This document shows, piece after piece, positions 19,828 through 34,020 of a stretch of DNA of 36,698 nucleotides. Positions within the stretch are counted from its first letter, which is position 1. Every line of letters starts with the position of its first letter. Position numbers and translations under genes: made by a program. Below the pieces are notes generated by a model. That model saw only the letters and a program-made list of their open reading frames with translations, did not search any database and was not told where the DNA came from. The stretch comes from Candidatus Methanoperedens sp. (lineage in GTDB: Archaea > Halobacteriota > Methanosarcinia > Methanosarcinales > Methanoperedenaceae). The stretch covers positions 1 through 36,698 of the forward strand of contig JAPZAP010000040.1 in assembly GCA_027460585.1 (NCBI GenBank), given 5' to 3'.

Positions 19828-21849
19828 ATGCTTTCCTATCTTTTTTTAGGAATAATTGCAGCATACCTTGTCGGGTCTGTATCAGCCCTGATATTAAATA
19901 AAAAAGATCGCTTATGCACATACGCATCATTTCTTAGTGCATCTATAGCATCCATCTTCGGTATTGTTTTTTCATTTTCAGTATTATTTGGGGAGACTTT
20001 TGAATTTACAAAATCAAGCGACTTGCCTTTGACCTATGGCCTTTTTGTGGATAAATTATCAGCCTTCTTTATTCTTGTTATATCTATAACTGCATTTGCA
20101 GTATCAATCTACTCGATCGGATATGTCCGTGAATATTACGGGAAGAAAAATATCGGATACCTGGGATTCCTGTATAATATTTTCCTGCTTTCAATGATCC
20201 TTGTCGTTTCTGCAAATAATGCTGTCATGTTCCTGATAGTCTGGGAATTAATGTCCATAATATCATTTCTGCTTGTGCTTTTCGAGCATGAGAAAGAGGA
20301 GGCAAGAAAAGCAGGTTTCATATATATTGTGATGACTCATATCGGCACCGGGTTCATCATTTTGTCATTCCTGATCCTTGCAGGTTCAAGCGGAAGCTTC
20401 AATTTCAATACCTTCAATGCTGCTGCGACAACTCTGTCTCCCGGTCTTAAGGATGCAGTTTTCCTTTTTGCACTTATTGGTTTCGGAACAAAAGCCGGTA
20501 TCGTTCCCCTGCATATCTGGCTTCCATATGCTCATCCCGCAGCACCGAGCAATGTTTCTGCACTAATGTCCGGTGTAATGATTAAAACTGCAATTTTCAT
20601 GCTTATCCGGGTCTTTTTTGATTTCCTGGGAGCAGGCGTTGCATGGTGGGGCGTGCTGGTGTTGATACTTGCGTCCGTTTCAGCGCTTCTTGGTGTATTA
20701 TATGCCCTGATGGAACATGATATGAAACGCCTTCTTGCGTATCATAGTGTCGAGAATATCGGGATCATCCTCATAGGAGTTGGGGTTTCTATGATCTTTA
20801 TGGCATCGGGTCATCCTGACCTTGCAGCGTTCGGATTAATAGCCGGGCTTTACCATACGATCAATCACGCTGTATTTAAATCGCTGTTGTTCATGGGAGC
20901 CGGTTCCATCCTATATTCAACGCACACAAGGAACATAGAGGAATACGGGGGGCTTATCAAAAAAATGCCCTGGACAGCGCTCTTTTTCCTGATAGGGTCA
21001 ATATCGATCTCAGCTCTTCCACCGTTTAATGGTTTTGTAAGTGAATGGCTGACTTTACAGGCGCAATTGCTCAGTATCAATCTTTCAGATAATATCACCA
21101 AAATGATCGTACTTTTTAGCGGCGCGGGCCTTGCTCTCACAGGCGCCCTTGCAGCAGCATGTTTTGTAAAGGCATTCGGAGTCAGTTTCCTTGCCCTTCC
21201 TAGAAGTGAACACGCGCAACATTCAAAGGAAGTGCCAATTCCAATGCTGATTGGAATGGGAATTCTTTCAGTGATGTGCATTGTTCTTGGAGTATTGCCT
21301 TTTTATTTCATCAGGATAATTGATTCCATATCTTCACCGCTTGTGGGTGTGAGCATAATTTCCCGGATAGATGCAAATCTATCGATCTCAACGCTGTCAG
21401 CTTTTCCCGCAACCATTTCGACTACAGCCATTGCTATTCTCGTTTTTGTGGTTTTGCCGCTTCCGGTAATCATGTATTTGCTGTTGAAGCGCACCCCAAC
21501 CCCGAAATATGAAACATGGGGCTGTGGGCAGCCCATCTCAACCGGAAGAAATGAATATACAGCTACCGCATTTTCAAAGCCTTTCCGCATGTGGTTCGGA
21601 GGGATCTTCAGGCCTCGAAGGGAGATACAGACTACCTATTCAGATTCGCCCTTCTTTAAGGAGAAAGTGATATTTTCATCTGAGATCGAGCCGATATTTG
21701 AGAGATTTTTGTATAATCCAGTCGTTTGGCTGGTTGTGACCGTATCGCGATACATGAGGATAATACAGACAGGATATCTTCAGACTTATCTACTCTATAT
21801 ACTTCTCACGCTTGTGATATCATTGATATTTGTGGGAAGCGGGGGATGA
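19828..21849 (+). CDS. hyfB: Hyf-type antiporter-like membrane subunit HyfB, first copy
   Basis: A 673-residue polytopic protein of the NuoL/MrpA/HyfB family, with about 15 predicted membrane helices. Core motifs for ion translocation are seen: the Glu in LIVWELMS, the Lys of GFGTKAGIVPLHIWLPYAH, and the NHAVFKSLLFMGAGS helix. The C-terminal soluble region CGQPISTGRNEYTATAFSKP is typical of HyfB. Clearly related along its whole length to the second hyfB at 24022, but substantially diverged. Not followed by hyfC: the reading frame ends at 21849 and a reversed hyfF begins 90 bases on. It may add an extra pump module to the complex, or be an orphan left by rearrangement. Confidence 0.92.
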   Translation: MLSYLFLGIIAAYLVGSVSALILNKKDRLCTYASFLSASIASIFGIVFSFSVLFGETFEFTKSSDLPLTYGLFVDKLSAFFILVISITAFAVSIYSIGYVREYYGKKNIGYLGFLYNIFLLSMILVVSANNAVMFLIVWELMSIISFLLVLFEHEKEEARKAGFIYIVMTHIGTGFIILSFLILAGSSGSFNFNTFNAAATTLSPGLKDAVFLFALIGFGTKAGIVPLHIWLPYAHPAAPSNVSALMSGVMIKTAIFMLIRVFFDFLGAGVAWWGVLVLILASVSALLGVLYALMEHDMKRLLAYHSVENIGIILIGVGVSMIFMASGHPDLAAFGLIAGLYHTINHAVFKSLLFMGAGSILYSTHTRNIEEYGGLIKKMPWTALFFLIGSISISALPPFNGFVSEWLTLQAQLLSINLSDNITKMIVLFSGAGLALTGALAAACFVKAFGVSFLALPRSEHAQHSKEVPIPMLIGMGILSVMCIVLGVLPFYFIRIIDSISSPLVGVSIISRIDANLSISTLSAFPATISTTAIAILVFVVLPLPVIMYLLLKRTPTPKYETWGCGQPISTGRNEYTATAFSKPFRMWFGGIFRPRREIQTTYSDSPFFKEKVIFSSEIEPIFERFLYNPVVWLVVTVSRYMRIIQTGYLQTYLLYILLTLVISLIFVGSGG

Positions 21850-21935
21850 CGTGGATCTACCCGATATTGTTGTCCCTGGAAATCCATACGATTGAATAAT
21901 CTGGTATTGTACCTGGGAAGCATTTGGATCTTGCA
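21850..21935. other. Junction region between hyfB and reversed hyfF
   Basis: About 86 bases where hyfC would be expected if this were an intact operon. It holds short coding-like scraps (DLPDIVVPGNPYD, GIVPGKHLDLALKL) in the plus direction but no ribosome-binding site or hyfC similarity. Interpreted as the breakpoint of the rearrangement. Confidence 0.4.
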
Positions 21936-23426
21936 TTAAAACTGACCAAAAATGAGCCATTTTTTATCATCCCACCTTACAACTGCTACTACTTTCATTA
22001 TCATATCATAAAAGGTGGGAGGAATATAAACACCGAGGACAAATACAAACACAACCAGTATCACCATCGCACCCAGCGTCCACCTGCTCACTTCACCCGG
22101 AGTTATTCCTGGTTTTGGGTTTCCGAATATCATTTTACTGAGGTTATAGAAAAAACCTGCGAAGATCATTATTATAAATAGCAAGAATAATACGGAAGCG
22201 ATGATATGTCCCTGGAGGAATCCCGCCCAAAGTATAATGAATTCACTGATAAATAAGCTAAATGGAGGTGACCCTGTGATCGCAAGACCACCTATTAGCA
22301 GCATGGCTCCTGTTACAGGCATTGATTTCACGACCCCGCTCACTTTACCTATCTCTTTTGTCCCATGTTTAAGATGAACGTTTCCCGCACCAAAAAACAT
22401 GAGTGATTTTGTCATTGCATGGTTGAACATGTGAAGAAGCGCCCCAAAAACCCCAAAAGTACCTCCAAACCCTATCCCAATAGCGATAATTCCCATGTGC
22501 TCTACGCTACTGTACGCAAGCATTCGTTTGTAATCTTCCTGCAAGATTATGAAAGGCATTGCAATTCCAAGTGATAGGAGCCCAAATACTATCAGAAGAT
22601 TGCTGGTGAATTCTATGCCGGTTGACTTTGTTGCGATTGAATAGAATCGAATGATACCGTACATAGCGCAATTCAAGAGAACTCCAGAAAGCAGCGCACT
22701 GACAGGACTTGGAGCTTCGCTATGCGCATCTGGAAGCCATGTATGCATTGGTGCAAGACCTGCTTTTGTTCCGTAACCAATAAGGATAAAAATAAACGCG
22801 AGCTTCATTATAGTCGGATCAAACTGGTCTGCAACCTTGATAAGTGAAGTCCAGTTAAGAGCATCTCCTGATTCACCCATTATTTTGACAGCACCATAAT
22901 ATGTGAGAATGGTACCCAAAAGGGCAAACGTTATGCCTACCGTGCATATTGTCATGTATTTCCAGGCTGCTTCCACCGAGGATTTTCTTAAATAAAGGAT
23001 TAACAATAGAGTCGAGACGAGCGTTGTCATCTCGATAGCGATCCAGAGTCCGAGATTATTGGTTACGCCTACAAGAAGCATTGTAAACATGAACATATGG
23101 AAAAGTATATAATAGAGTCTCAATTTTTTTAAATCCAAAATGCCATGTTTGAATTCATGCCCCATGTATCCAATAGAATAAATTGAAGCCACAAAGCCCA
23201 CAATGGAAACGATCAGGACGATGAAAGCGCTGAACATATCAGCGAACAATGTATTTGTCCATTCCATTATGATACCGTTTTGGTATACGTATTTCACAAG
23301 GTTCAATCCTAATATGAGCGTTACCGTAGAACCTGTGAGGCTTACTGCCTCAATTTGAGTCTTTGATCTGGTCAAAAAGCATAATACCCCGGTTAATATA
23401 GGAATAAAAAGCAGATATTCGATCAT
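21936..23426 (-). CDS. hyfF: Hyf-type antiporter-like membrane subunit HyfF, inverted copy
   Basis: A 496-residue NuoN/HyfF-type protein with about 14 membrane helices. IEMTTL contains the conserved Glu, GYGTKAGLAPMHTWLPDAH the Lys and YKRMLAYSSVEHMG the broken-helix motif. It is colinear with the hyfF at 27669: moderately alike in the N-terminal third and nearly identical in the last two thirds. The last 13 residues (RWDDKKWLIFGQF) have no counterpart in the other copy; the original stop seems lost and the frame reads on into foreign sequence. Start at ATG 23426 behind AGGTTGAT, three codons after a TTG alternative. It runs opposite to hyfB, behind the HEPN-hyfE chimera. Confidence 0.92.
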   Translation of the reverse strand: MIEYLLFIPILTGVLCFLTRSKTQIEAVSLTGSTVTLILGLNLVKYVYQNGIIMEWTNTLFADMFSAFIVLIVSIVGFVASIYSIGYMGHEFKHGILDLKKLRLYYILFHMFMFTMLLVGVTNNLGLWIAIEMTTLVSTLLLILYLRKSSVEAAWKYMTICTVGITFALLGTILTYYGAVKIMGESGDALNWTSLIKVADQFDPTIMKLAFIFILIGYGTKAGLAPMHTWLPDAHSEAPSPVSALLSGVLLNCAMYGIIRFYSIATKSTGIEFTSNLLIVFGLLSLGIAMPFIILQEDYKRMLAYSSVEHMGIIAIGIGFGGTFGVFGALLHMFNHAMTKSLMFFGAGNVHLKHGTKEIGKVSGVVKSMPVTGAMLLIGGLAITGSPPFSLFISEFIILWAGFLQGHIIASVLFLLFIIMIFAGFFYNLSKMIFGNPKPGITPGEVSRWTLGAMVILVVFVFVLGVYIPPTFYDMIMKVVAVVRWDDKKWLIFGQF

Positions 23427-23431
23427 ATTTA

Positions 23432-23734
23432 TCAACCTATCAGGTTTTTGAGCATGTCGGTATCGATGCTATCGAATGTCTTATTTATCCGGAATATCAG
23501 GATGCCCATAATGAGAACGGTACAAGTTTCCAAATCCTTCAGGAGTTGGACAATGGAATTACCATAAGCTGAAACCCCAGGTCCTTTCAAGAGAGCCTTA
23601 ACCGCATATTCGGCAGCTTGCCGGGCCTTAAAACAGCACCAGTTATAGCTTTTACTTGAATGATCCTGCCGGGCTGAATTTAAAGTATTGGACGCTTGCG
23701 CCATCCAGCGCTCAAATTCATCTTTGTCAAACAT
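23432..23734 (-). CDS. HEPN domain fused to the C-terminal end of HyfE (chimera)
   Basis: A 100-residue frame joining two unrelated parts. Residues 1-71 are a HEPN domain (FDKDEFERWMAQASNTL; NWCCFKARQAAEYAVKALLK; YGNSIVQLL). Residues 73-100 (VLIMGILIFRINKTFDSIDT then DMLKNLIG) are the last helix and tail of HyfE and match the end of hyfE at 27663 almost residue for residue. The junction is in frame. The HEPN part lacks its C-terminal half, where the Rx4-6H RNase motif usually lies, and no MNT nucleotidyltransferase is adjacent. Probably a remnant formed by recombination; whether it is expressed is unknown. It overlaps the hyfF start region by the TTG alternative only. Confidence 0.75.
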   Translation of the reverse strand: MFDKDEFERWMAQASNTLNSARQDHSSKSYNWCCFKARQAAEYAVKALLKGPGVSAYGNSIVQLLKDLETCTVLIMGILIFRINKTFDSIDTDMLKNLIG

Positions 23735-23750
23735 GATTTATATAAATCAT
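23733..23750. promoter_or_regulatory. 18-bp perfect palindrome at the HEPN-hyfE start codon
   Basis: ATGATTTATATAAATCAT at 23733-23750 is a perfect palindrome that includes part of the minus-strand start codon and a TATA-like core. Directly beyond it, TTTGTGGA (23751-23758) and TCCACAAA (23771-23778) form a second inverted repeat. HEPN/antitoxin modules are often autoregulated at such sites, so this may be the surviving operator of a toxin-antitoxin pair. Confidence 0.45.
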
Positions 23751-23839
23751 TTTGTGGATTTAAAAGGATTTCCACAAAGAGTGAGACTATTCTTACCTGT
23801 GATCCCTGATTTGAAAGCCCTCCATTTTTCCTCCATCTC

Positions 23840-23894
23840 TCATCAATAATCAATATATATCATTTCTTTTTATTAGGAAATCTTAAATACAGAA
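23840..23894 (+). promoter_or_regulatory. Promoter of the hyfB-C-E-F-G-H-I operon
   Basis: TCATCAATAATCAATA (23840-23855) and TCTTAAATACAGAA (23881-23894) repeat the elements of the first hyfB promoter with the same 41-base start-to-start spacing. The second is a TATA element. Because the ATG is at 24022, transcripts should carry a leader of roughly 110 bases, unlike the first copy. Confidence 0.6.
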
Positions 23895-24021
23895 ACAAAG
23901 ATGATACGGGGTTCTGTTGTTCATTAAATTAAATAATTAAAGAAGGCTGGGATTTAATATTTTAGATACAAATGGATTTGCAGTTAAATTCGCGGGATAA
24001 AAACGATATTTTTTGGTGATT

Positions 24022-26049
24022 ATGTCAGTGGATTATTTGTTCTTCGGGATTATCGCGTTTTATTTAATAGGCGCCGTATCGGCTGTTATTCTTAATAAGA
24101 AAGATGCCATCTGTGCTTATACTTCTTTCATTAGCGCAGCAATCGCAGCGCTCCTGGGTATCATATTCTCAATTTCAGTAATTTTCGGTGATACATTTTC
24201 GTACAATCTTTCAGGAGGATCATACCTGAAATTTGGCTTTTTTGTTGACAGGCTCTCAGCATTCTTCATTCTTGTTATATCCATCTGCGTCTTTGCAGTA
24301 TCGATATACTCAACAGGATATGTCAGGGAATATTTCGGGAAAAAGAATATCGGCTACCTGGGTTTCCTGTATAACATATTTATTATTTCAATGATACTTG
24401 TAGCATCTGCGGATAATGCGATAATGTTCCTGATAGTCTGGGAATTGATGTCAGTGGTATCTTATTTCCTTGTTGTCTATGAACATGAAAAACCCGAAAC
24501 AAGAAAAGCGGGTTTTATCTATATCGTGATGACCCATATCGGAACAGGTTTCATCATGCTGTCATTCCTTATCTTTGTGGGAACAAGCGGAAGTTACAGC
24601 TTTGGAACATTCGCAGAAGCGGGCAAAACGATGACACCGCTCCTTAAAGACCTTGCATTCATATTCGCACTCATTGGTTTCGGGACAAAAGCAGGAATAG
24701 TCCCAATGCATATCTGGCTTCCATATGCTCACCCAGAAGCCCCAAGCAACGTGTCAGCGCTAATGTCAGGCGTCATGATTAAGATTGCTATTTTCATGTT
24801 AATCAGGGTTTTCTTCGATTTCCTTGGCGCAACTCAGGCCTGGTGGGGTTACGTTGTGCTAACCCTTGGCACGATATCCGCTATTCTTGGAATACTCTAT
24901 GCAGTCGTGGAATCCGATATCAAGAGAATGCTTGCATTTAGCAGTATCGAAAATATAGGGATAATCCTGATCGGAATTGGCGCTTCCATGATCTTTTTTG
25001 CAAGCGGGAAGCCAGTACTTGCTTCGATCGCAGCAATAGCAGCATTATATCACCTGCTTAACCATTCCATATTCAAAGGGCTTTTATTCATGGGTGCAGG
25101 CTCAATTCTTTATTCAACTCATACGAAAAATATAGAAGAATTAGGCGGGCTGATAAAGAAGATGCCAAAAAGCGCAATGTTAATTCTCATCGGTGTTCTT
25201 TCGATCTGTGCTTTGCCGCCATTTAGCGGTTTCGTAAGTGAGTGGTTGACTTTCCAATCGCTGCTCCTGGGTTTCAATCTGAATGAAACATTCCCTATGA
25301 TAATATTATTTATCAGCGCCGCAGTCCTTGCATTGACCGGAGCGCTTGCAGCTTATTGTTTCCTCAAATTCTTCGGTATAGGGTTCCTGGCTCTTCCAAG
25401 AAGCAAGCATGCAGAGCATGCAAAGGAAGCAAATACGCCAATGCTTATAGGAATGGGGATATTTGCATCTTTATCGGTATTACTCGGTATATTACCATTT
25501 TATGTGTTGCCCGTACTAGAAAGGATTGCAGCCTCATTTACAGGGAACCTTGAATCGTTCACCTTCGCAAATTTCGCAACATTCGCCATCCCATCCAGTA
25601 TGATCTCTTTATCGACCCCCATTATCCTTGCTTTAGTATTCATTTTTATGCTTATCCTGTCCCTGATCCTGTTCTTAATTAACAGGAAAAAGCAGCCAGT
25701 ATATGAAACATGGGGTTGCGGACAACCAGTATCTACATCAAGGAATGAATATACGGCTACAGCGTTTTCAAAACCAGTGCAGATGTGGTTCAAGAACCTT
25801 TATCGGCCGGCCAGGGAAACAGAAGTTACATATTCCACATCCCTATACCTGAAGGAATCCTTCAAATTCGAGTCCAAAATTGAACAGGTGATAGAACGAT
25901 ACTTATACGAACCAGTTGTTGGTTTTGTCATTACAAGATCACGAAAACTATTGGTAATCCGAACTGGAAGCATCCATACATACCTGGGTTACATTTTTGG
26001 TACATTAGTTATACTATTCATGTTCGTTATAGCAGGAGGCAGCTCATGA
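24022..26049 (+). CDS. hyfB: Hyf-type antiporter-like membrane subunit HyfB, operon copy
   Basis: A 675-residue NuoL/HyfB-type proton- or sodium-translocating subunit. Conserved features are LIVWELMSVVSY (Glu), GFGTKAGIVPMHIWLPYAHPEAPSNV in the core (Lys) and LLNHSIFKGLLFMGAGS; the C-terminal loop has TWGCGQPVSTSRNEYTATAF. Start chosen at ATG 24022 (MSVDYLFFGII), which matches the first copy, with GGTGAT just before it. Its stop overlaps the hyfC start (ATGA), showing translational coupling. First gene of the complete operon. Confidence 0.94.
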   Translation: MSVDYLFFGIIAFYLIGAVSAVILNKKDAICAYTSFISAAIAALLGIIFSISVIFGDTFSYNLSGGSYLKFGFFVDRLSAFFILVISICVFAVSIYSTGYVREYFGKKNIGYLGFLYNIFIISMILVASADNAIMFLIVWELMSVVSYFLVVYEHEKPETRKAGFIYIVMTHIGTGFIMLSFLIFVGTSGSYSFGTFAEAGKTMTPLLKDLAFIFALIGFGTKAGIVPMHIWLPYAHPEAPSNVSALMSGVMIKIAIFMLIRVFFDFLGATQAWWGYVVLTLGTISAILGILYAVVESDIKRMLAFSSIENIGIILIGIGASMIFFASGKPVLASIAAIAALYHLLNHSIFKGLLFMGAGSILYSTHTKNIEELGGLIKKMPKSAMLILIGVLSICALPPFSGFVSEWLTFQSLLLGFNLNETFPMIILFISAAVLALTGALAAYCFLKFFGIGFLALPRSKHAEHAKEANTPMLIGMGIFASLSVLLGILPFYVLPVLERIAASFTGNLESFTFANFATFAIPSSMISLSTPIILALVFIFMLILSLILFLINRKKQPVYETWGCGQPVSTSRNEYTATAFSKPVQMWFKNLYRPARETEVTYSTSLYLKESFKFESKIEQVIERYLYEPVVGFVITRSRKLLVIRTGSIHTYLGYIFGTLVILFMFVIAGGSS

Positions 26050-26999
26050 TAGCGGCATTACAGTCTGCGATTTTGCAGATAATCATAATTCTTGCATTTT
26101 CACCGCTAATAAGTGGAATTATAAAGAAAGCAAAAGCATTTTTCCAGATCAGGAAGGGGCCCAGTATATTCCAGCCATATTATGATATTGCAAAGCTCTT
26201 CAGGAAAGATTCTGTAGTATCACAGAATGTATCCTGGATATTCCATGCAGCTCCAATTATATCATTCGCTGCGGTCATGACAGCCGGTCTTTTAATACCT
26301 ATCTACATTACTTCGCTGCCACTTGGTTTTGCCGGTGACCTGATCGCTGTAGTTTATCTTTTTGCACTCGCCCGCTTTTTCACAGCTCTAGCCTCGCTTG
26401 ACGCAGGGAGCTCATTCGGTGGCATGGGTGGAAGCCGTGAGATGTTCGTGGCAGCCATGGTAGAACCAGCTTTGATGCTTTCGATATTTGCAGTTGCGCT
26501 TAATGTAGGTTCCACTAATTTGAGCTATATTTCCCAGACCTTATCGGGTATGGGCATGGATGCGTTATCGCCTTACCAGATACTGGCATTTGTGGCACTA
26601 TTTATAATCGCGATAGCAGAAACAGGACGCATACCCGTTGATAATCCGTCCACGCATCTTGAACTTACCATGATCCATGAAGCCATGATCCTTGAATATT
26701 CGGGAAAACAACTGGCGATCGTAGAACTTGGAGCCATGGCCAAGCAATTACTTATATTTTCATTGATCGCGAACATATTCTTCCCATGGGGCATAGCATC
26801 GGCAGGTTCAGGAATATCAGCGCTTGTATTGGCCCTTCTCGTTTATATGTTAAAGATAGTTATCATCGGGTTAGCGATGGCTGCGGTTGAGACCTCAACT
26901 GCAAAATGGAGACTATTCAGGCTTCCGGACCTGTTATCTATTTCCCTTATGTTCTCATTCCTTGCACTTGTTTCATTTATTATTGTTAAAGGAGGATAA
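26046..26999 (+). CDS. hyfC: Membrane anchor subunit HyfC (NuoH-like)
   Basis: A 317-residue membrane protein with about eight helices, homologous to NuoH, HycD and EchB. QIRKGPSIFQPYYDIAKLF, AETGRIPVDNPSTHLELTM and EAMILEYSG are the diagnostic cytosolic loops with the conserved charged residues that link the hydrophilic arm to the pump. Starts within hyfB (ATGA overlap). The gene is absent from the rearranged copy. Confidence 0.95.
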   Translation: MIAALQSAILQIIIILAFSPLISGIIKKAKAFFQIRKGPSIFQPYYDIAKLFRKDSVVSQNVSWIFHAAPIISFAAVMTAGLLIPIYITSLPLGFAGDLIAVVYLFALARFFTALASLDAGSSFGGMGGSREMFVAAMVEPALMLSIFAVALNVGSTNLSYISQTLSGMGMDALSPYQILAFVALFIIAIAETGRIPVDNPSTHLELTMIHEAMILEYSGKQLAIVELGAMAKQLLIFSLIANIFFPWGIASAGSGISALVLALLVYMLKIVIIGLAMAAVETSTAKWRLFRLPDLLSISLMFSFLALVSFIIVKGG

Positions 27000-27003
27000 A
27001 AAA

Positions 27004-27663
27004 ATGGCTGAGATTGTTTTTGGATCTAATACTATGCAGTTGCTCATTGCTTTGATACTTGTTTCTACTTTTATGATACTGGGATCAACAAGGCTTTATT
27101 CATGTGTCAGGGCTTTTGGTATCCAGTCATTCCTGCTGGCATGTGTCGCTGGTATTGTCGCATATTCGACAGGTAAAAACGACATATACATTATAGCAGT
27201 ACTTACTCTTCTATTCAAATCGATAGTCATTCCGTATTTCTTAATATACATCATACGCGAAATAAAAGTTAAGAAGGAAATTGATCTTTATGTCAAGATA
27301 TCGCCATCTCTCATAATCGGTGGAGGGCTTGTTGTAATTTCATATTACCTGATACGATCTATTAATGTCATATCAGAACTTTCAAGCTTTGCACTTTCCG
27401 CTTCAATGTCCCTTGTTTCAATCGGGCTTTTTATTATGATCAGCAGGAAAAAAGCCATCATGCAAATGATCGGGATACTGATTATGGAAAATGGTCTTTT
27501 CCTTGGTGCGATATCCCTGACATACGGTATGCCGTTGCTTGTGGAACTTGGAATCTTCTTCGATGTGCTCATAGCTGTCCTGATAATGGGAATTTTGATA
27601 TTCAGGATAAATAGAACCTTCGAAAGTGTTGATACATCCATACTAAAAAATCTAATAGGTTGA
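27004..27663 (+). CDS. hyfE: Membrane subunit HyfE
   Basis: A 219-residue protein with about seven helices, related to HyfE and, in its fold, to NuoK/MrpC. The start at 27004 has a strong Shine-Dalgarno (GGAGG) at eight-base spacing; a longer upstream frame overlaps hyfC and is rejected. SRKKAIMQMIGILIMENGLF is the NuoK-like helix with its Glu. The C-terminal VLIMGILIFRINRTFESVDT recurs at the end of the chimeric gene at 23432. Confidence 0.92.
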   Translation: MAEIVFGSNTMQLLIALILVSTFMILGSTRLYSCVRAFGIQSFLLACVAGIVAYSTGKNDIYIIAVLTLLFKSIVIPYFLIYIIREIKVKKEIDLYVKISPSLIIGGGLVVISYYLIRSINVISELSSFALSASMSLVSIGLFIMISRKKAIMQMIGILIMENGLFLGAISLTYGMPLLVELGIFFDVLIAVLIMGILIFRINRTFESVDTSILKNLIG

Positions 27664-27668
27664 TCCAA

Positions 27669-29123
27669 ATGATCGAATATCTTCTTCTTTCTCCCATCAT
27701 AACAGGCATATTATGCTATTTTACAAGAAGCCGCAAGCAGGTTGAAACCATAAGTATCCTCGGTTCGACGATCACGCTTATCCTTGGTTTAACACTTGTT
27801 CTGGATGTATACAGGAACGGCATCATTGTCACATGGCAGAATGCACTTTTTGCGGATGCATTCAGTGCGTATATAGTCCTTATCGTCTCGATCATCAGTT
27901 TTGTATCATCGATATATTCTATCGGATATATGGGATATGAGATAGACCATAATGTAATTGACCTGAAAAGATTGAAAATGTATTATGTCCTGTTCCATTT
28001 TTTCGTGTTCACAATGCTCCTGGTAGGGGTTACAAATAACCTTGGACTCTGGATCGCAATCGAGATGACAACACTTGTGTCCGCGCTTCTCATAATCTTT
28101 TATTCAAATAAAGCCTCGGTCGAGGCTGCCTGGAAATACGTGATAATATCAACTGTAGGCATAACCTTTGCCCTGTTTGGCACAATACTTACTTATTACG
28201 CAGCCGTAAAGATACTGGGAGAAACAGGGAATGCACTTAACTGGACATCGCTTATTGCAGTCGCAGGACAGTTTGACCCCATGATAATGAAACTCGCATT
28301 CATTTTTATTCTTATCGGATATGGAACAAAAGCAGGTCTTGCTCCAATGCATACATGGCTTCCGGATGCATACAGCGAATCCCCAACCCCTGTTGGTGCA
28401 CTTCTATCAGGAACGCTTGTTAATTGCGCTATGTACGGAATAATCAGATTCTATTCAATAGCTACTAAATCAACAGGTACAGAATTCACAAGCAATTTGC
28501 TCATTATTTTTGGGCTGTTGTCCCTCGGTATAGCTGTACCATTTATAATCCTCCAGGAGGATTATAAGCGTCTCCTTGCGTATAGCAGCGTTGAGCATAT
28601 GGGAATTATCGCATTGGGTATAGGATTTGGAGGAGTTTATGGGATTTTCGGGGCAATACTTCACATGTTCAATCATGCAATGACAAAATCACTCATGTTC
28701 TTTAGCGCAGGAAATGTTCTTCTCAAACATGGTACAAAAGAGATCGAAAAAGTCAGCGGGATAGTAAAAACAATGCCTGTGACCGGAGCTATTCTGTTAA
28801 TCGGGGGGCTTGCGATAACAGGGTCACCTCCATTTGGCATATTTATCAGTGAATTTACTATACTTTCAGCGGGATTTTTCCAGGGACATATTATCGCATC
28901 CGTATTATTCCTGCTATTTATAATAATGATTTTCGCAGGTTTTTTCTATAACCTCAGTAAAATGACTTTCGGAAATCCAAAGCCAGGAGTAACTCCTGGT
29001 GAAGTGAGCAGGTGGACGCTGGGTGCGATGATGATATTGGTGGTGTTCGTAATTGTCCTGGGTGTCTATATACCTCAAGACTTCATTCAAATGATACACA
29101 ATGTAGTAAAAGTTGTGATGTGA
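27669..29123 (+). CDS. hyfF: Antiporter-like membrane subunit HyfF
   Basis: A 484-residue NuoN/HyfF-type translocator. The start is ATG 27669 with GGTTGAT upstream; a TTG three codons earlier overlaps the hyfE stop. The conserved Glu (IEMTTL), Lys (GYGTKAGLAPMHTWLPDAY) and second half-channel (YKRLLAYSSVEHMGI) are in place. It ends KVVM four bases before hyfG. Paralogue of the inverted gene at 21936. Confidence 0.94.
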   Translation: MIEYLLLSPIITGILCYFTRSRKQVETISILGSTITLILGLTLVLDVYRNGIIVTWQNALFADAFSAYIVLIVSIISFVSSIYSIGYMGYEIDHNVIDLKRLKMYYVLFHFFVFTMLLVGVTNNLGLWIAIEMTTLVSALLIIFYSNKASVEAAWKYVIISTVGITFALFGTILTYYAAVKILGETGNALNWTSLIAVAGQFDPMIMKLAFIFILIGYGTKAGLAPMHTWLPDAYSESPTPVGALLSGTLVNCAMYGIIRFYSIATKSTGTEFTSNLLIIFGLLSLGIAVPFIILQEDYKRLLAYSSVEHMGIIALGIGFGGVYGIFGAILHMFNHAMTKSLMFFSAGNVLLKHGTKEIEKVSGIVKTMPVTGAILLIGGLAITGSPPFGIFISEFTILSAGFFQGHIIASVLFLLFIIMIFAGFFYNLSKMTFGNPKPGVTPGEVSRWTLGAMMILVVFVIVLGVYIPQDFIQMIHNVVKVVM

Positions 29124-29127
29124 CACT

Positions 29128-30696
29128 ATGAAAACTGAGATCATAGATACAATTAAGAAAGATTTTCAGGAGAACATTCTTGAAGAATCGATATCATACA
29201 ACGAGATTTATCTCACAGTAAAAAAAGAATCAATAGTGAAATTATGCGATCGGATCTATTACCATTTCGATTTACCCCTTGTTTCGATATTTGCTACTGA
29301 TGAGAGAAATATTAATGGATTTTTCAAGATCCATTATGTTTTTTCGATCGATAAAAATGATGCCTTTATAATTCTAAGAATAAACGTAGATGGGAAAAAT
29401 CCCGGATATCCATCAATTACGTATAAGATAGCGGCGGCAAACTGGTATGAACGGGAGATGCAGGACATGTTCGGTCTTGTGCCGCAGGGGCATCCCGATC
29501 CGAGAAGGCTTATGAATTTTGAGGATTGGCCGGATGGAGTTCATCCCCTCAGGAAAGATTTTGATATCAGAACAAAACCACCCCGTGTCAATGGTGAATA
29601 TATTTACCGCCATGTCGATGGTGAAGGAGTTTACGAGATACCTGTAGGACCGGTTCATGCAGGCGTAATCGAACCAGGGCACTTCAGGTTCAGCGTGGCA
29701 GGAGAACCTATAATCAATCTTGAAATAAGGCATTTCTATACTCATAAAGGTGTTGAAAAATTGTTTGAGAACATCTCGATAGACAAAGCCGTATTTCTTT
29801 CTGAAAGGATTTCCGGCGATAACTCAGTTGCTCATGCAGTCGCATTTTGCCAGGCTATGGAAAAAATAGCCGGGGTCAATGTACCTCCCCGTGCGAGATT
29901 TATAAGGACGATACTTCTTGAACTTGAACGCATATACAACCATCTCGGAGATATCGCCGGGATCGCAACAGATGTGGCTTTTGCATTCGGCGCTGCTCAT
30001 GCGAATAAACTTAAGGAAGAAGTATTGCAATTAAACGAGCGTGTAACTGGCAGCAGGATGCTCCGGGGCATGAACGCTATCGGCGGAGTCAGGCGTGACA
30101 TAGGTGATAAGAAAGATGAGATCCTTCAAAAGTTGTCCATAATACAGCGGGATTTCAGGAAATTGATGGAAAATTTCACTTCGACACCTTCGCTTATGGA
30201 CAGGATCGAAACGACGGGACGAATTTATCCTGATACTGCAAAGGGATTGCATGTAGTGGGACCATCAGGACGGGCATCCGGGCTGGACAGGGATACAAGA
30301 CGCGATCATCCTTATGCAGCATACCCTGAATTCAATTTCAAAGTGCCGGTTCTCAAAGCTGGCGATGTACTTTCAAGAACGATCGTGAGGGCAGATGAAA
30401 TATGTGAATCCGTAGCATTGATAGAACAGGCGCTCTGGGCTCTTCCTGAAAGAGAGACCAGGGTAAATGTCGAAAAGATCCCCGACGGTCATGCGTTTGG
30501 ATATACTGAATCGCCAAGAGGTGAAACCATTTACTGGGTCAGGACAATTGGAAACAGGATAGACAGATGCAAGGTTCGCGACCCGTCTTTCTGTAACTGG
30601 CTTGCTATCGAGTATGCCGTGCTTGATAATATCGTTCCTGATTTCCCGATCATAAACAAGAGCTTGAGCTTATCATACTCAGGCAATGACATGTAG
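29128..30696 (+). CDS. hyfG: HyfG-like large subunit (NuoC-NuoD fusion) without NiFe ligands
   Basis: A 522-residue soluble protein: residues 1-160 are the NuoC (30-kDa) domain (ANWYEREMQDMFGL, PLRKDF), and the rest is the 49-kDa/large-hydrogenase-subunit domain (RHFYTHKGVEKLFE, PRARFIRTILLELERIYNHL). True group 4 hydrogenases bind NiFe with a CGxC pair and a DPCxxC pair. Here the first site reads ISGDNS (228-233) and the second DPSFCN (485-490): all four ligand positions are non-Cys; Cys489 is out of register. The protein should therefore not make hydrogen and resembles energy-converting hydrogenase-related (Ehr) subunits. Electron donor and acceptor are unknown. Confidence 0.92.
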   Translation: MKTEIIDTIKKDFQENILEESISYNEIYLTVKKESIVKLCDRIYYHFDLPLVSIFATDERNINGFFKIHYVFSIDKNDAFIILRINVDGKNPGYPSITYKIAAANWYEREMQDMFGLVPQGHPDPRRLMNFEDWPDGVHPLRKDFDIRTKPPRVNGEYIYRHVDGEGVYEIPVGPVHAGVIEPGHFRFSVAGEPIINLEIRHFYTHKGVEKLFENISIDKAVFLSERISGDNSVAHAVAFCQAMEKIAGVNVPPRARFIRTILLELERIYNHLGDIAGIATDVAFAFGAAHANKLKEEVLQLNERVTGSRMLRGMNAIGGVRRDIGDKKDEILQKLSIIQRDFRKLMENFTSTPSLMDRIETTGRIYPDTAKGLHVVGPSGRASGLDRDTRRDHPYAAYPEFNFKVPVLKAGDVLSRTIVRADEICESVALIEQALWALPERETRVNVEKIPDGHAFGYTESPRGETIYWVRTIGNRIDRCKVRDPSFCNWLAIEYAVLDNIVPDFPIINKSLSLSYSGNDM

Positions 30697-30704
30697 GTGA
30701 GATA

Positions 30705-31043
30705 ATGTTTGAGATAATTAAAAAAACCTTACAGACAGGCTGCCAGACTACGAAATATCCCCAAACGCCTGATTTCGCGCCTCAGGGGTTTCGCGGAAAA
30801 CCCGAATTTATCGCTGAAAAATGCACCTATTGCGCAGATTGTGTGAAGGTTTGTCCTGCGGGTGTCATATGGCTCTCAGAAAAAAGCGGTGAAAAAACTC
30901 TTTCATTATCCTGCTGCGGTTGTATATTCTGCGGACGATGTGAGGAAGTATGCAAACCAGGTGCCATTAAACTTACCCAGGAATATGAACTTTCAGCAAA
31001 GAAAAAAGAGGATCTTATATCAAGCATCGGAAGGAAGTTATGA
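30705..31043 (+). CDS. hyfH: Two-cluster ferredoxin-like subunit HyfH
   Basis: A 112-residue NuoI-type protein with two [4Fe-4S] motifs, CTYCADCVKVCP near residue 45 and CIFCGRCEEVCKPG near residue 70, which relay electrons to the HyfI cluster. Starts at 30705 with AGGTGA five bases upstream; its stop overlaps the hyfI start. Order and coupling match Hyf and Ech operons. Confidence 0.93.
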   Translation: MFEIIKKTLQTGCQTTKYPQTPDFAPQGFRGKPEFIAEKCTYCADCVKVCPAGVIWLSEKSGEKTLSLSCCGCIFCGRCEEVCKPGAIKLTQEYELSAKKKEDLISSIGRKL

Positions 31044-31522
31044 CTGTTGAAGACGAAATTGAGATCATGGGACAGCGCATGAATGACAAGATCAGGAAGA
31101 TCTTTGGGCGATCCCTGCATATCCGTGAAGTTGATGCCGGCTCCTGCAATGCCTGTGAGGTTGAAGTGAACTCTCTCTCAAATCCAATTTATGATATCGA
31201 GCGATTCGGTTTGCATATTGTGGCATCCCCCCGCCATGCAGATATGCTGCTTGTCACCGGTTCTGTGACACGGAATATGGAACTTGCACTTCTTAAGACC
31301 TATAATGCCACGCCATCACCCAAGCTTGTTGCCGCGATGGGTTCCTGCGCCTGCAACGGGGGCATATTCGGGGAAACATACGCAAGTGGTGGCGGTGTTG
31401 ATAAATTCATTCCGGTTGATGTTTATATACCAGGGTGCCCTCCAAGACCGCAGGCTGTGATCTTTGGCATCATGGTAGTTCTTGATAAACTTGAACAGAA
31501 GATCGGGAAGAAAGAGGTATGA
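31040..31522 (+). CDS. hyfI: NuoB-like small subunit HyfI
   Basis: A 160-residue homologue of NuoB/HycG, carrying the terminal [4Fe-4S] cluster next to the large subunit. The ligands are Cys36 and Cys39 (GSCNACE), one Cys in GSCACNGG (103 or 105) and Cys133 in PGCPPRP. The motif CNxC is retained even though the partner lacks NiFe ligands, as in complex I and Ehr. The start overlaps hyfH (ATGA), and the stop is followed within bases by the uspA start. Confidence 0.94.
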   Translation: MTVEDEIEIMGQRMNDKIRKIFGRSLHIREVDAGSCNACEVEVNSLSNPIYDIERFGLHIVASPRHADMLLVTGSVTRNMELALLKTYNATPSPKLVAAMGSCACNGGIFGETYASGGGVDKFIPVDVYIPGCPPRPQAVIFGIMVVLDKLEQKIGKKEV

Positions 31523-31524
31523 TC

Positions 31525-31959
31525 ATGACAAAATATGAAATTCTTCTTGCCACAGATGGCAGTGAATGCGCACGAAAAGCAGAGATCGCAGCCATGAAAA
31601 TCACAAGATCATATAATATCAGGATGGCAGCGATATTTGTTGCAGTAGCGAAGAAAGATTCCCAACGCGAAGAACTTATTGCCAGGGGTGAAGAGGTGTT
31701 AAAGCGCGTTGTGGAAACGGGAGCAGATATGGGAATTGATATCCATAAGATCCTTGTGGGTGTCAGCATGCAGCGGATGCCAAAAAAAGGAGCGCACGCC
31801 GAGATTATTGCTCATTCTATCCTGGAAGCCGCCGGGAAATATAGGGTTCATACGATCGTCATGGGCAGCGAGGGTGAAACTGAAATAGACCCCGAGCTTG
31901 GAAGCGTTGCGCAGGCTGTCGTGGGAAAAGCAAAATGCACAGTGCTTGTAACCAGATGA
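31525..31959 (+). CDS. Universal stress protein (UspA family) in the hyf operon
   Basis: A 144-residue single-domain USP. ILLATDGSECARKAE is the N-terminal ATP-contact strand, and HTIVMGSEG with GSVAQAVVGKAKCTVLVTR forms the usual nucleotide-binding G-loop (GSVAxxV). Start set at ATG 31525 with GAGGT at six-base spacing; an ATG six bases earlier overlaps the Shine-Dalgarno. Co-transcribed with hyfI, so a regulatory or protective role for the complex is possible. ATP binding is inferred from motif. Confidence 0.9.
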   Translation: MTKYEILLATDGSECARKAEIAAMKITRSYNIRMAAIFVAVAKKDSQREELIARGEEVLKRVVETGADMGIDIHKILVGVSMQRMPKKGAHAEIIAHSILEAAGKYRVHTIVMGSEGETEIDPELGSVAQAVVGKAKCTVLVTR

Positions 31960-33122: not shown

Positions 33123-33551
33123 CTATTTCTTCTTTCGCGTCTCTATCTCTTTCTTAAGCCAGGGACCAACATCTAGTCCGTGTATGAGTCCTTTGAGGTC
33201 ATCCTTCAGGTTGGTTGGCTTTATCTTTATAAGCCATCCTTCAACGTAAGGATCTTGCTTTAAAATATCAAGGTCATCTTCGATAGTTTCATTGACCCCT
33301 GTGATTGTTCCGGTGACAGGCATAAGGAGACCACCAACCCATTTTGCAGATTCAAGTGAGCCAAACGCTTCCCCGGCTTCGAATTCATCATCTTCCATTG
33401 GAAGGTCTATGAACTCGATATTTCCTGCCGATTTTGCGCCATATGCATCAAGTCCTACCGTCACAGAACCATTATCTTCAATTTTTGCCCATGTGTGATC
33501 TTTAGTATAATACAGTTCATCCGGAAGTTTGTATCCCTCTATTTCGACCAT
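33123..33551 (-). CDS. gcvH: GcvH-like lipoyl carrier protein 1
   Basis: A 142-residue lipoyl-domain protein of the glycine-cleavage H type. YYTKDHTWAKI is the usual N-terminal motif, and the lipoyl Lys70 is in GSLESAKWVGGLLMPVTG. Strong Shine-Dalgarno GAGGT upstream. The tail GLDVGPWLKKEIETRKKK is more basic than in standard H proteins. No gcvT or gcvP is adjacent, so a carrier role outside glycine cleavage is possible. Clearly distinct from its neighbour at 33598. Confidence 0.92.
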   Translation of the reverse strand: MVEIEGYKLPDELYYTKDHTWAKIEDNGSVTVGLDAYGAKSAGNIEFIDLPMEDDEFEAGEAFGSLESAKWVGGLLMPVTGTITGVNETIEDDLDILKQDPYVEGWLIKIKPTNLKDDLKGLIHGLDVGPWLKKEIETRKKK

Positions 33552-33597
33552 TTTTTTTTACCTCATTCGTTGGTTATTACATTTGTTATATTTAAAC

Positions 33598-34020
33598 TTA
33601 ATTATCTGCGTATCGTTCCCGTTCTTTTGCGATCAATTTTGTATAATATTCTATTGCTTCTTCCACTTTCATTACAAGGTTTGCGCTAAATTTCCCATTG
33701 ACCTTAACTATCCATTCTCCATACGGGTCACTGTTAATGATATTAGGGTCATCCCAGAGTTTTTCATTAACCGATATGACTTTCGAATCGAAAGGAAGTG
33801 ATATCTGTGAAACCGCTTTTATGGTTTCATATGCAACGATCATGTCACCCTTTTTGATCGATTCGCCGACCTCGGGAAGATCAATATGGACTATTCCTTT
33901 TGACAGCGACTGCCCAAGTTCGGTAATACCTATGCTGACCTGTCCATTTTCAGGTTTCAACCATACATGGTTCTTCATATAATACAGGTCATCAGGGAAC
34001 TCGAACTCATAAGCCTTCAT
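33598..34020 (-). CDS. GcvH-like lipoyl carrier protein 2
   Basis: A 140-residue H-type lipoyl domain: YYMKNHVWLK in front and the lipoyl Lys68 in AYETIKAVSQISLPF. It aligns with the protein at 33123 throughout but is much diverged, so duplication is old. A TATA-like TATTTTATACC (about 34045-34055) gives a near-leaderless message, separate from the following gcvH. The sequence around the lysine (ETIKAVSQ) departs from the GcvH consensus (ESVKAxS) only slightly. Confidence 0.9.
   Translation of the reverse strand: MKAYEFEFPDDLYYMKNHVWLKPENGQVSIGITELGQSLSKGIVHIDLPEVGESIKKGDMIVAYETIKAVSQISLPFDSKVISVNEKLWDDPNIINSDPYGEWIVKVNGKFSANLVMKVEEAIEYYTKLIAKERERYADN

Follow-up and report, generated by a model that had tools for sequence, protein, structure and literature searches.

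A second hyfB and a second hyfF lying side by side in Candidatus Methanoperedens have different origins

On a contig of Candidatus Methanoperedens (JAPZAP010000040.1, assembly GCA_027460585.1; the whole 36,698-nucleotide stretch analysed is called the window), an operon of hyf-like genes encoding a membrane complex is preceded by a second hyfB on the forward strand (hyfB2) and, on the reverse strand, by a second hyfF together with the tail of a hyfE (hyfF2 and hyfE'). This arrangement raises the question of whether the extra genes are the remains of one duplicated operon, as had been proposed from the letters of the window without database searches (the sequence-only reading). Although hyfB2 and hyfF2 together have the look of a single operon copy that was rearranged, their origins differ; we consider it probable that an old HyfB2 paralog and a separately inserted foreign hyfE'–hyfF2 fragment lie side by side. 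The window is one contig, containing no N, of a 2.47-Mb metagenome-assembled genome (MAG; 153 contigs, 84% complete, 4% contaminated). It was compared with a set of 31 genomes of the genus, its own (G000) counted among them, in which some gene absences may be assembly gaps. G014 is the closest relative of the window in the HyfB tree. The features on which the question turns are as follows.

19828–21849, + strand: hyfB2, a NuoL/HyfB-like antiporter subunit gene, by tree and genus spread an old paralog of hyfB1 (PF00361, 1.8e-55)
21850–21957, no strand: left insert junction, running from the hyfB2 stop to where hyfF homology begins and showing none to the G014 locus; within it lie what remains of an insertion sequence (IS) transposase gene and the foreign 3' codons of hyfF2
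21872–21919, − strand: DUF772/DDE_Tnp_1 transposase remnant (16 codons, 12 identical, E 0.001)
21936–23435, − strand: hyfF2, a second hyfF whose own stop codon is gone and whose 3' codons are foreign (homology, trees)
23432–23519, − strand: final 28 codons and stop of hyfE, inserted along with hyfF2 (23/28 match; blastn to hyfE–hyfF of G014)
23525–23734, − strand: a HEPN gene truncated to its 70 N-terminal codons and joined in frame to the tail of HyfE (PF05168)
23735–23778, − strand: conserved block upstream of the HEPN gene, a putative promoter/operator (inverted repeat and TATA-like stretch)
23835–24021, + strand: native upstream region of hyfB1, the right edge of the insertion site (alignment to G014 and to relatives' gaps)
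24022–26049, + strand: hyfB1 of the main operon (homology, synteny)

The forward gene is as the sequence-only reading described it, an intact open reading frame (ORF) of 673 codons, whose product has 63% amino-acid identity to that of hyfB1. In a midpoint-rooted HyfB tree of 50 rows, built without the hyfB1 of G028 (which has an in-frame TAA) and without the partial B2-type matches of G008, G011 and G013, HyfB1 (26 rows) is split from HyfB2 and the outgroups at 100/100, and the HyfB2 clade comprises 22 rows of the genus (support 97/90) beside two Methanosarcinaceae rows. HyfB1 of the window pairs with HyfB1 of G014, and HyfB2 with HyfB2. Judged from this tree, HyfB2 is an old paralog, older than the split of most sampled Methanoperedens species; a midpoint root does not tell which of the two was the original copy.

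Direct search and tree together place both hyfB types in 20 of the 31 genomes, including one whose hyfB1 carries a single in-frame TAA (G028), one with a single TGA in the hyfB2 range (G019) and one whose hyfB2 is split across two contigs (G006). G008, G011 and G013 have hyfB1 and a partial B2-type match of 76–79% identity that was not placed in the tree; G001 and G015 have a B2-clade gene only, G012, G016, G020 and G025 have hyfB1 only, and G003 and G026 have neither. The two genes are adjacent in nine genomes (G000, G002, G010, G014, G017, G018, G019, G021 and G029) and lie on different contigs in 11, among which G006 and G027 may represent breaks at contig ends. In the genome of strain BLZ2, too, hyfB2 stands away from the operon. 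No hyf gene was seen within 5.5 kb of the off-site hyfB2 in any of the nine loci examined, that is, in the different-contig genomes except G006 and G027. A B2-clade gene stands immediately 5' of hyfC in G001, G015 and both outgroups, and the B2 type can therefore serve as the HyfB of the operon.

Between the window and G014 the two genes have diverged alike, at nonsynonymous (dN) and synonymous (dS) rates of 0.057 and 0.627 for hyfB2 and of 0.053 and 0.631 for hyfB1. The charged residues that we checked, which we take from work on complex I to be those of the proton path, are retained in HyfB1, HyfB2 and HyfF2 of the window. On these comparisons HyfB2 is conserved under purifying selection in Ca. 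Methanoperedens. The joint presence of hyfB1 and hyfB2 in 20/31 genomes amounts to an extra antiporter-like gene kept beside the complex, as in a complex I relative of the 2M type with its additional pump, and it is possible that HyfB2 is an extra antiporter-like subunit joining the membrane arm. In G028, the hyfB1 with the in-frame TAA (C77:501-2507) is accompanied by an open hyfB2 on another contig. Separately, a second Usp gene lies immediately 5' of hyfB2 in G002 and G027 (L090 4893-5288 and L084 4233-4628), recalling the Usp gene that closes the main operon.

The spread of hyfF2 is different: at the similarity level used, only the genome of the window, 1 of 31, has two hyfF genes. The reversed gene is present as first reported, an open frame of 499 codons that is 81% identical to hyfF1; the sequence-only reading missed that its last ~12 codons extend beyond the stop position of other hyfF genes into unrelated DNA. 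hyfF1 lies within the operon and shares 92% identity with the hyfF of G014, and is therefore the native copy, while no other hyfF exceeds 86% identity to hyfF2. Its closest relatives in named genomes are those of Ca. Methanoperedens, the best being strain BLZ2 at 86%. In the trees hyfF2 falls into a clade of seven rows, the others being BLZ2 and five relatives, with support of 96/87 for protein, 92/91 for DNA at all sites and 98/95 for codon positions 1+2. All HyfF trees left out G021 (hyfF interrupted by a run of N), G018 and G020 (with hyfF incomplete or outside the stretches used) and G003 and G026 (no hyfF relative at the similarity level used); the first was built without G014, the later ones with G014 and without UBA474. 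A recent duplication of hyfF1 as the source of hyfF2 was discarded, because trees with the two as sisters are rejected (p-AU, approximately unbiased test, 0.0003 for DNA and 1e-140 for protein). The placement of HyfF2 suggests that it was transferred from a relative not yet sampled, one within the BLZ2 clade or close to it. A search with HyfF2 for a viral carrier, which covered viral contigs but neither plasmid nor phage collections, gave no match.

Homology to G014 halts exactly at the hyfB2 stop (21849) and restarts at 23835, from where 133 bp (23835–23967) match G014 at 85.7% identity and can be aligned with the ~200-bp gaps of relatives. The portion alignable by blastn to hyfE–hyfF of G014 is 21958–23520, ~1.56 kb. 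The DUF772/DDE transposase of which 16 codons remain at the left junction is whole in relatives and was not found elsewhere in the window's own, incomplete genome. At the other end, the reversed HyfE tail was correctly recognised by the sequence-only reading: ORF 23432–23734 (−) ends in 28 residues, 23 of which match the HyfE C-terminus. Residues 8–70 of the same ORF, which had escaped notice, are a truncated HEPN domain (PF05168, E 6.6e-15), so that by its sequence the ORF is a HEPN::HyfE chimera, with a fusion that is in frame, as one in three would be by chance.

The HEPN fragment covers PF05168 profile positions 2–65 of 117 and is thus not the complete HEPN domain of a HEPN/MNT toxin. Longer HEPN genes, coding for 118–134 amino acids, occur in seven genomes of the genus and are 78–84% identical to the fragment over the common part. 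The 44-bp block upstream of it is recognisable in all seven homologs, with similarity fading further out, and is 97.7% identical to G014 over 43 bp. Within the block an 8-bp inverted repeat, TTTGTGGA...TCCACAAA, flanks the TATA-like stretch CTTTTAA; the window, G014 and G012 have a perfect copy of the repeat, the other five homologs one with mismatches. We infer a promoter with an operator. The link to HEPN/MNT toxin–antitoxin systems thus lies in the match of the truncated gene and its upstream block to the longer HEPN genes of the seven relatives; in contrast to those, the gene of the window is cut at ~70 codons and fused to HyfE, and any toxin activity would be presumed from the family only.

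The age of the insertion bears on what the open hyfF2 frame can mean. In a branch-specific codon model for hyfF (16 of 29 rows, fixed topology, branch lengths refitted), omega was 0.076 on the hyfF2 branch versus 0.069 elsewhere (log-likelihood difference 0.1), and an omega of 1 on that branch was worse by 96 log units; HyfF2 was under strong purifying selection in the past. A decayed pseudogene is not supported by the same value, which is not near 1, on a branch that includes time before the insertion. Of 271 sites that are otherwise invariant, HyfF2 differs at 8, more than any other of the 27 rows; G016 follows with 7 of 270. The HEPN fragment, a weak clock of 70 codons, has ratios of nonsynonymous to synonymous differences (pN/pS) of 0.11–0.17 against six homologs and 0.25 against L121, compared with 0–0.14 for pairs among the six. 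Because the fragment shows hardly any decay, much like its homologs, the truncation looks recent, and so does the insertion of HyfF2. Since the branch spans time in the donor and the truncation looks recent, the open hyfF2 frame is no proof of use at the new site; the open frame and the low omega can be explained by recent insertion.

Several points weigh against an old paralog beside a recently transferred fragment. The omega of hyfF2, as low as the background, also fits a copy in use; no genome was found with a hyfF nearer than 86% to hyfF2; both junctions rest on one assembled contig; and eight of the 31 genomes have no full or partial pair of hyfB1 and hyfB2, so that HyfB2 is not universal. 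Transfer, moreover, is favoured rather than proven, because a tree holding hyfF2 with hyfF1 and the hyfF of G014 is not rejected (p-AU 0.12 for protein, 0.125 for DNA and 0.053 for positions 1+2). This last result would allow hyfF2 to have arisen by duplication within the lineage before the window and G014 split, with the copy kept here and lost in G014. We regard such a duplication as unlikely, although less so than the two alternatives that follow, as the free trees place hyfF2 with the BLZ2 clade and the little-degraded HEPN fragment suggests a recent event.

The single contig is also where an assembly artefact would have to lie, with a hyfE'–hyfF piece of a co-occurring species stitched in. 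The fragmented, incomplete and slightly contaminated MAG and the resemblance of hyfF2 to the gene of another species speak for this; yet two false joins would be needed, HEPN against hyfE and the hyfF end against the IS remnant, and on inspection neither lies in sequence visibly common to both sides. The contig is free of N, and three related loci have other inserts in the same gap. The hyfB2–hyfB1 gap measures 193–231 bases in five of the nine tandem loci and more than 1.1 kb in four, where it holds an AAA ATPase gene in G014 (L091 9023-10261), a SatD-like gene in G002 (L090 7619-8278), a nucleotidyltransferase and HepT-like pair in G019 (L092 3002-4121) and hyfF2 in the window (21850–23834). 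We consider an artefact improbable.

Least probable by our estimate, and rejected, is the ancestral duplicate operon of the sequence-only reading, reduced and partly inverted, in which selection kept just two pump subunits that extended the membrane arm: hyfB2 and hyfF2 are indeed both open, with the checked charged residues kept and the low omega of hyfF2, but the two differ in spread (hyfB1 with hyfB2 in 20/31 genomes against hyfF2 in 1/31), HyfB2 is old and often off the operon in relatives, a second hyfC occurs in 0/31 (a single match in 29, none in two), no second full hyfE, hyfG or hyfI was seen in the stretches examined around the loci (whole genomes were not searched for these), and both ends of hyfF2 carry scars. 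The absence of hyfC noted in that reading holds in so far as none lies between hyfB2 and hyfF2; it is not a gene lost from an earlier operon copy.

What the old paralog and the inserted fragment adjoin is set out below.

26046–31959, + strand: the rest of the main operon, hyfC, hyfE, hyfF1, hyfG, hyfH, hyfI and Usp (Pfam, synteny; the Pfam match of hyfE is under its cut-off)
27660–29123, + strand: hyfF1, in the main operon
29128–30696, + strand: hyfG, a fused 30/49-kDa subunit gene without NiFe cysteines (Pfam, lost ligands)

HyfG aligns to subunit 5 of formate hydrogenlyase (FHL; 7z0s_E) over query residues 25–521 (E 2.3e-97), with RISGDN for RVCGIC and SLSYSG for DPCYSC. The two CxxC motifs expected of a [NiFe] group 4 hydrogenase are thus lacking, with all four NiFe cysteines absent, and cysteines are absent at both motifs in all 27 Methanoperedenaceae loci that cover both. 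The weak match of HyfG is the sole match to a NiFe-hydrogenase family in the incomplete genome G000. With E. coli hydrogenase-4 (Hyf) and FHL (7z0s) the operon shares HyfG homology and the gene order B-C-E-F-G-H-I, which we take to be that of hydrogenase-4; it differs from them in having neither CxxC motif and, on inspection, no hyfD. Group-4-like and antiporter-like subunits without NiFe ligands are found together, and loss of these ligands is what sets apart the energy-converting hydrogenase-related (Ehr) complexes, as described in PMC6349859. Since its large subunit has no NiFe ligands, the main operon is by sequence of Ehr type, not a hydrogenase, and the label Hyf in the sequence-only reading was too specific.

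In common with Ehr complexes (PMC6349859), the operon is complex I-like, with antiporter subunits and a NiFe-free group-4-like large subunit; it would be set apart by one fused 30/49-kDa subunit, a terminal Usp and a second HyfB that many genomes encode separately. Extra antiporter-like subunits are likewise present in the 2M complex I of Nitrospira and the five-pump complex I of Ca. Manganitrophaceae (PMC9040806), where they lie inside the complex I clusters, whereas hyfB2 is often elsewhere. In Nitrospirota operons of like type (L068, L069), HyfF-like genes occur as a tandem pair and the ligands are lost in the same way (KVSGDTS, NLSYAGND). Strain MPEBLZ has been reported to have an Ech hydrogenase without EchD (PMC4683180), which may or may not correspond to the operon described here. 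No report of a second hyfB or second hyfF in Methanoperedens was found at the level of titles and abstract openings. Two GcvH-like genes lie 3' of the operon in the window (33123–34020), and a counterpart pair in G005 (L078 15214-16105) is ~4 kb from an off-site hyfB2.

Taking the old paralog and the inserted fragment as two separate components, HyfB2 is most likely an additional or alternative ion-translocating HyfB of the neighbouring Ehr-type complex, and by analogy it might act as an extra pump like those of the 2M complex I (PMC9040806). The ~1.56-kb fragment with the HyfE tail and HyfF2 probably came from another Methanoperedens, either a member of the BLZ2 clade or close to it. It would have been inserted back to front in the hyfB2–hyfB1 gap, a spot with cargo in several species, and joined to a truncated HEPN toxin-type gene. 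The HEPN promoter could drive HEPN'::HyfE' and HyfF2, in which case HyfF2 would compete with HyfF1; compared with such expression and competition, it is more likely that HyfF2 is a recent passenger with no established role. We regard as unlikely the fuller proposal that HyfB2, encoded away from the operon in many species, serves as third pump of a NiFe-free Ehr in most anaerobic methanotrophs of the genus, and that in the organism of the window a foreign HyfF under a stress-responsive toxin-gene promoter also allows conditional exchange of pump modules.

The loss of NiFe ligands may be a reason to re-examine reports of an Ech hydrogenase in Methanoperedens. The HyfF2 insert would be a complex I-like module caught mid-shuffle, with a foreign subunit gene behind the upstream region of a toxin gene, and adjoining partial paralogs such as these need not stem from one duplicated operon. 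Should HyfB2 indeed be part of the complex, the pumps of the Ehr in Ca. Methanoperedens would vary in number or in kind, a point of relevance to the handling of low-potential electrons by these methane oxidisers.

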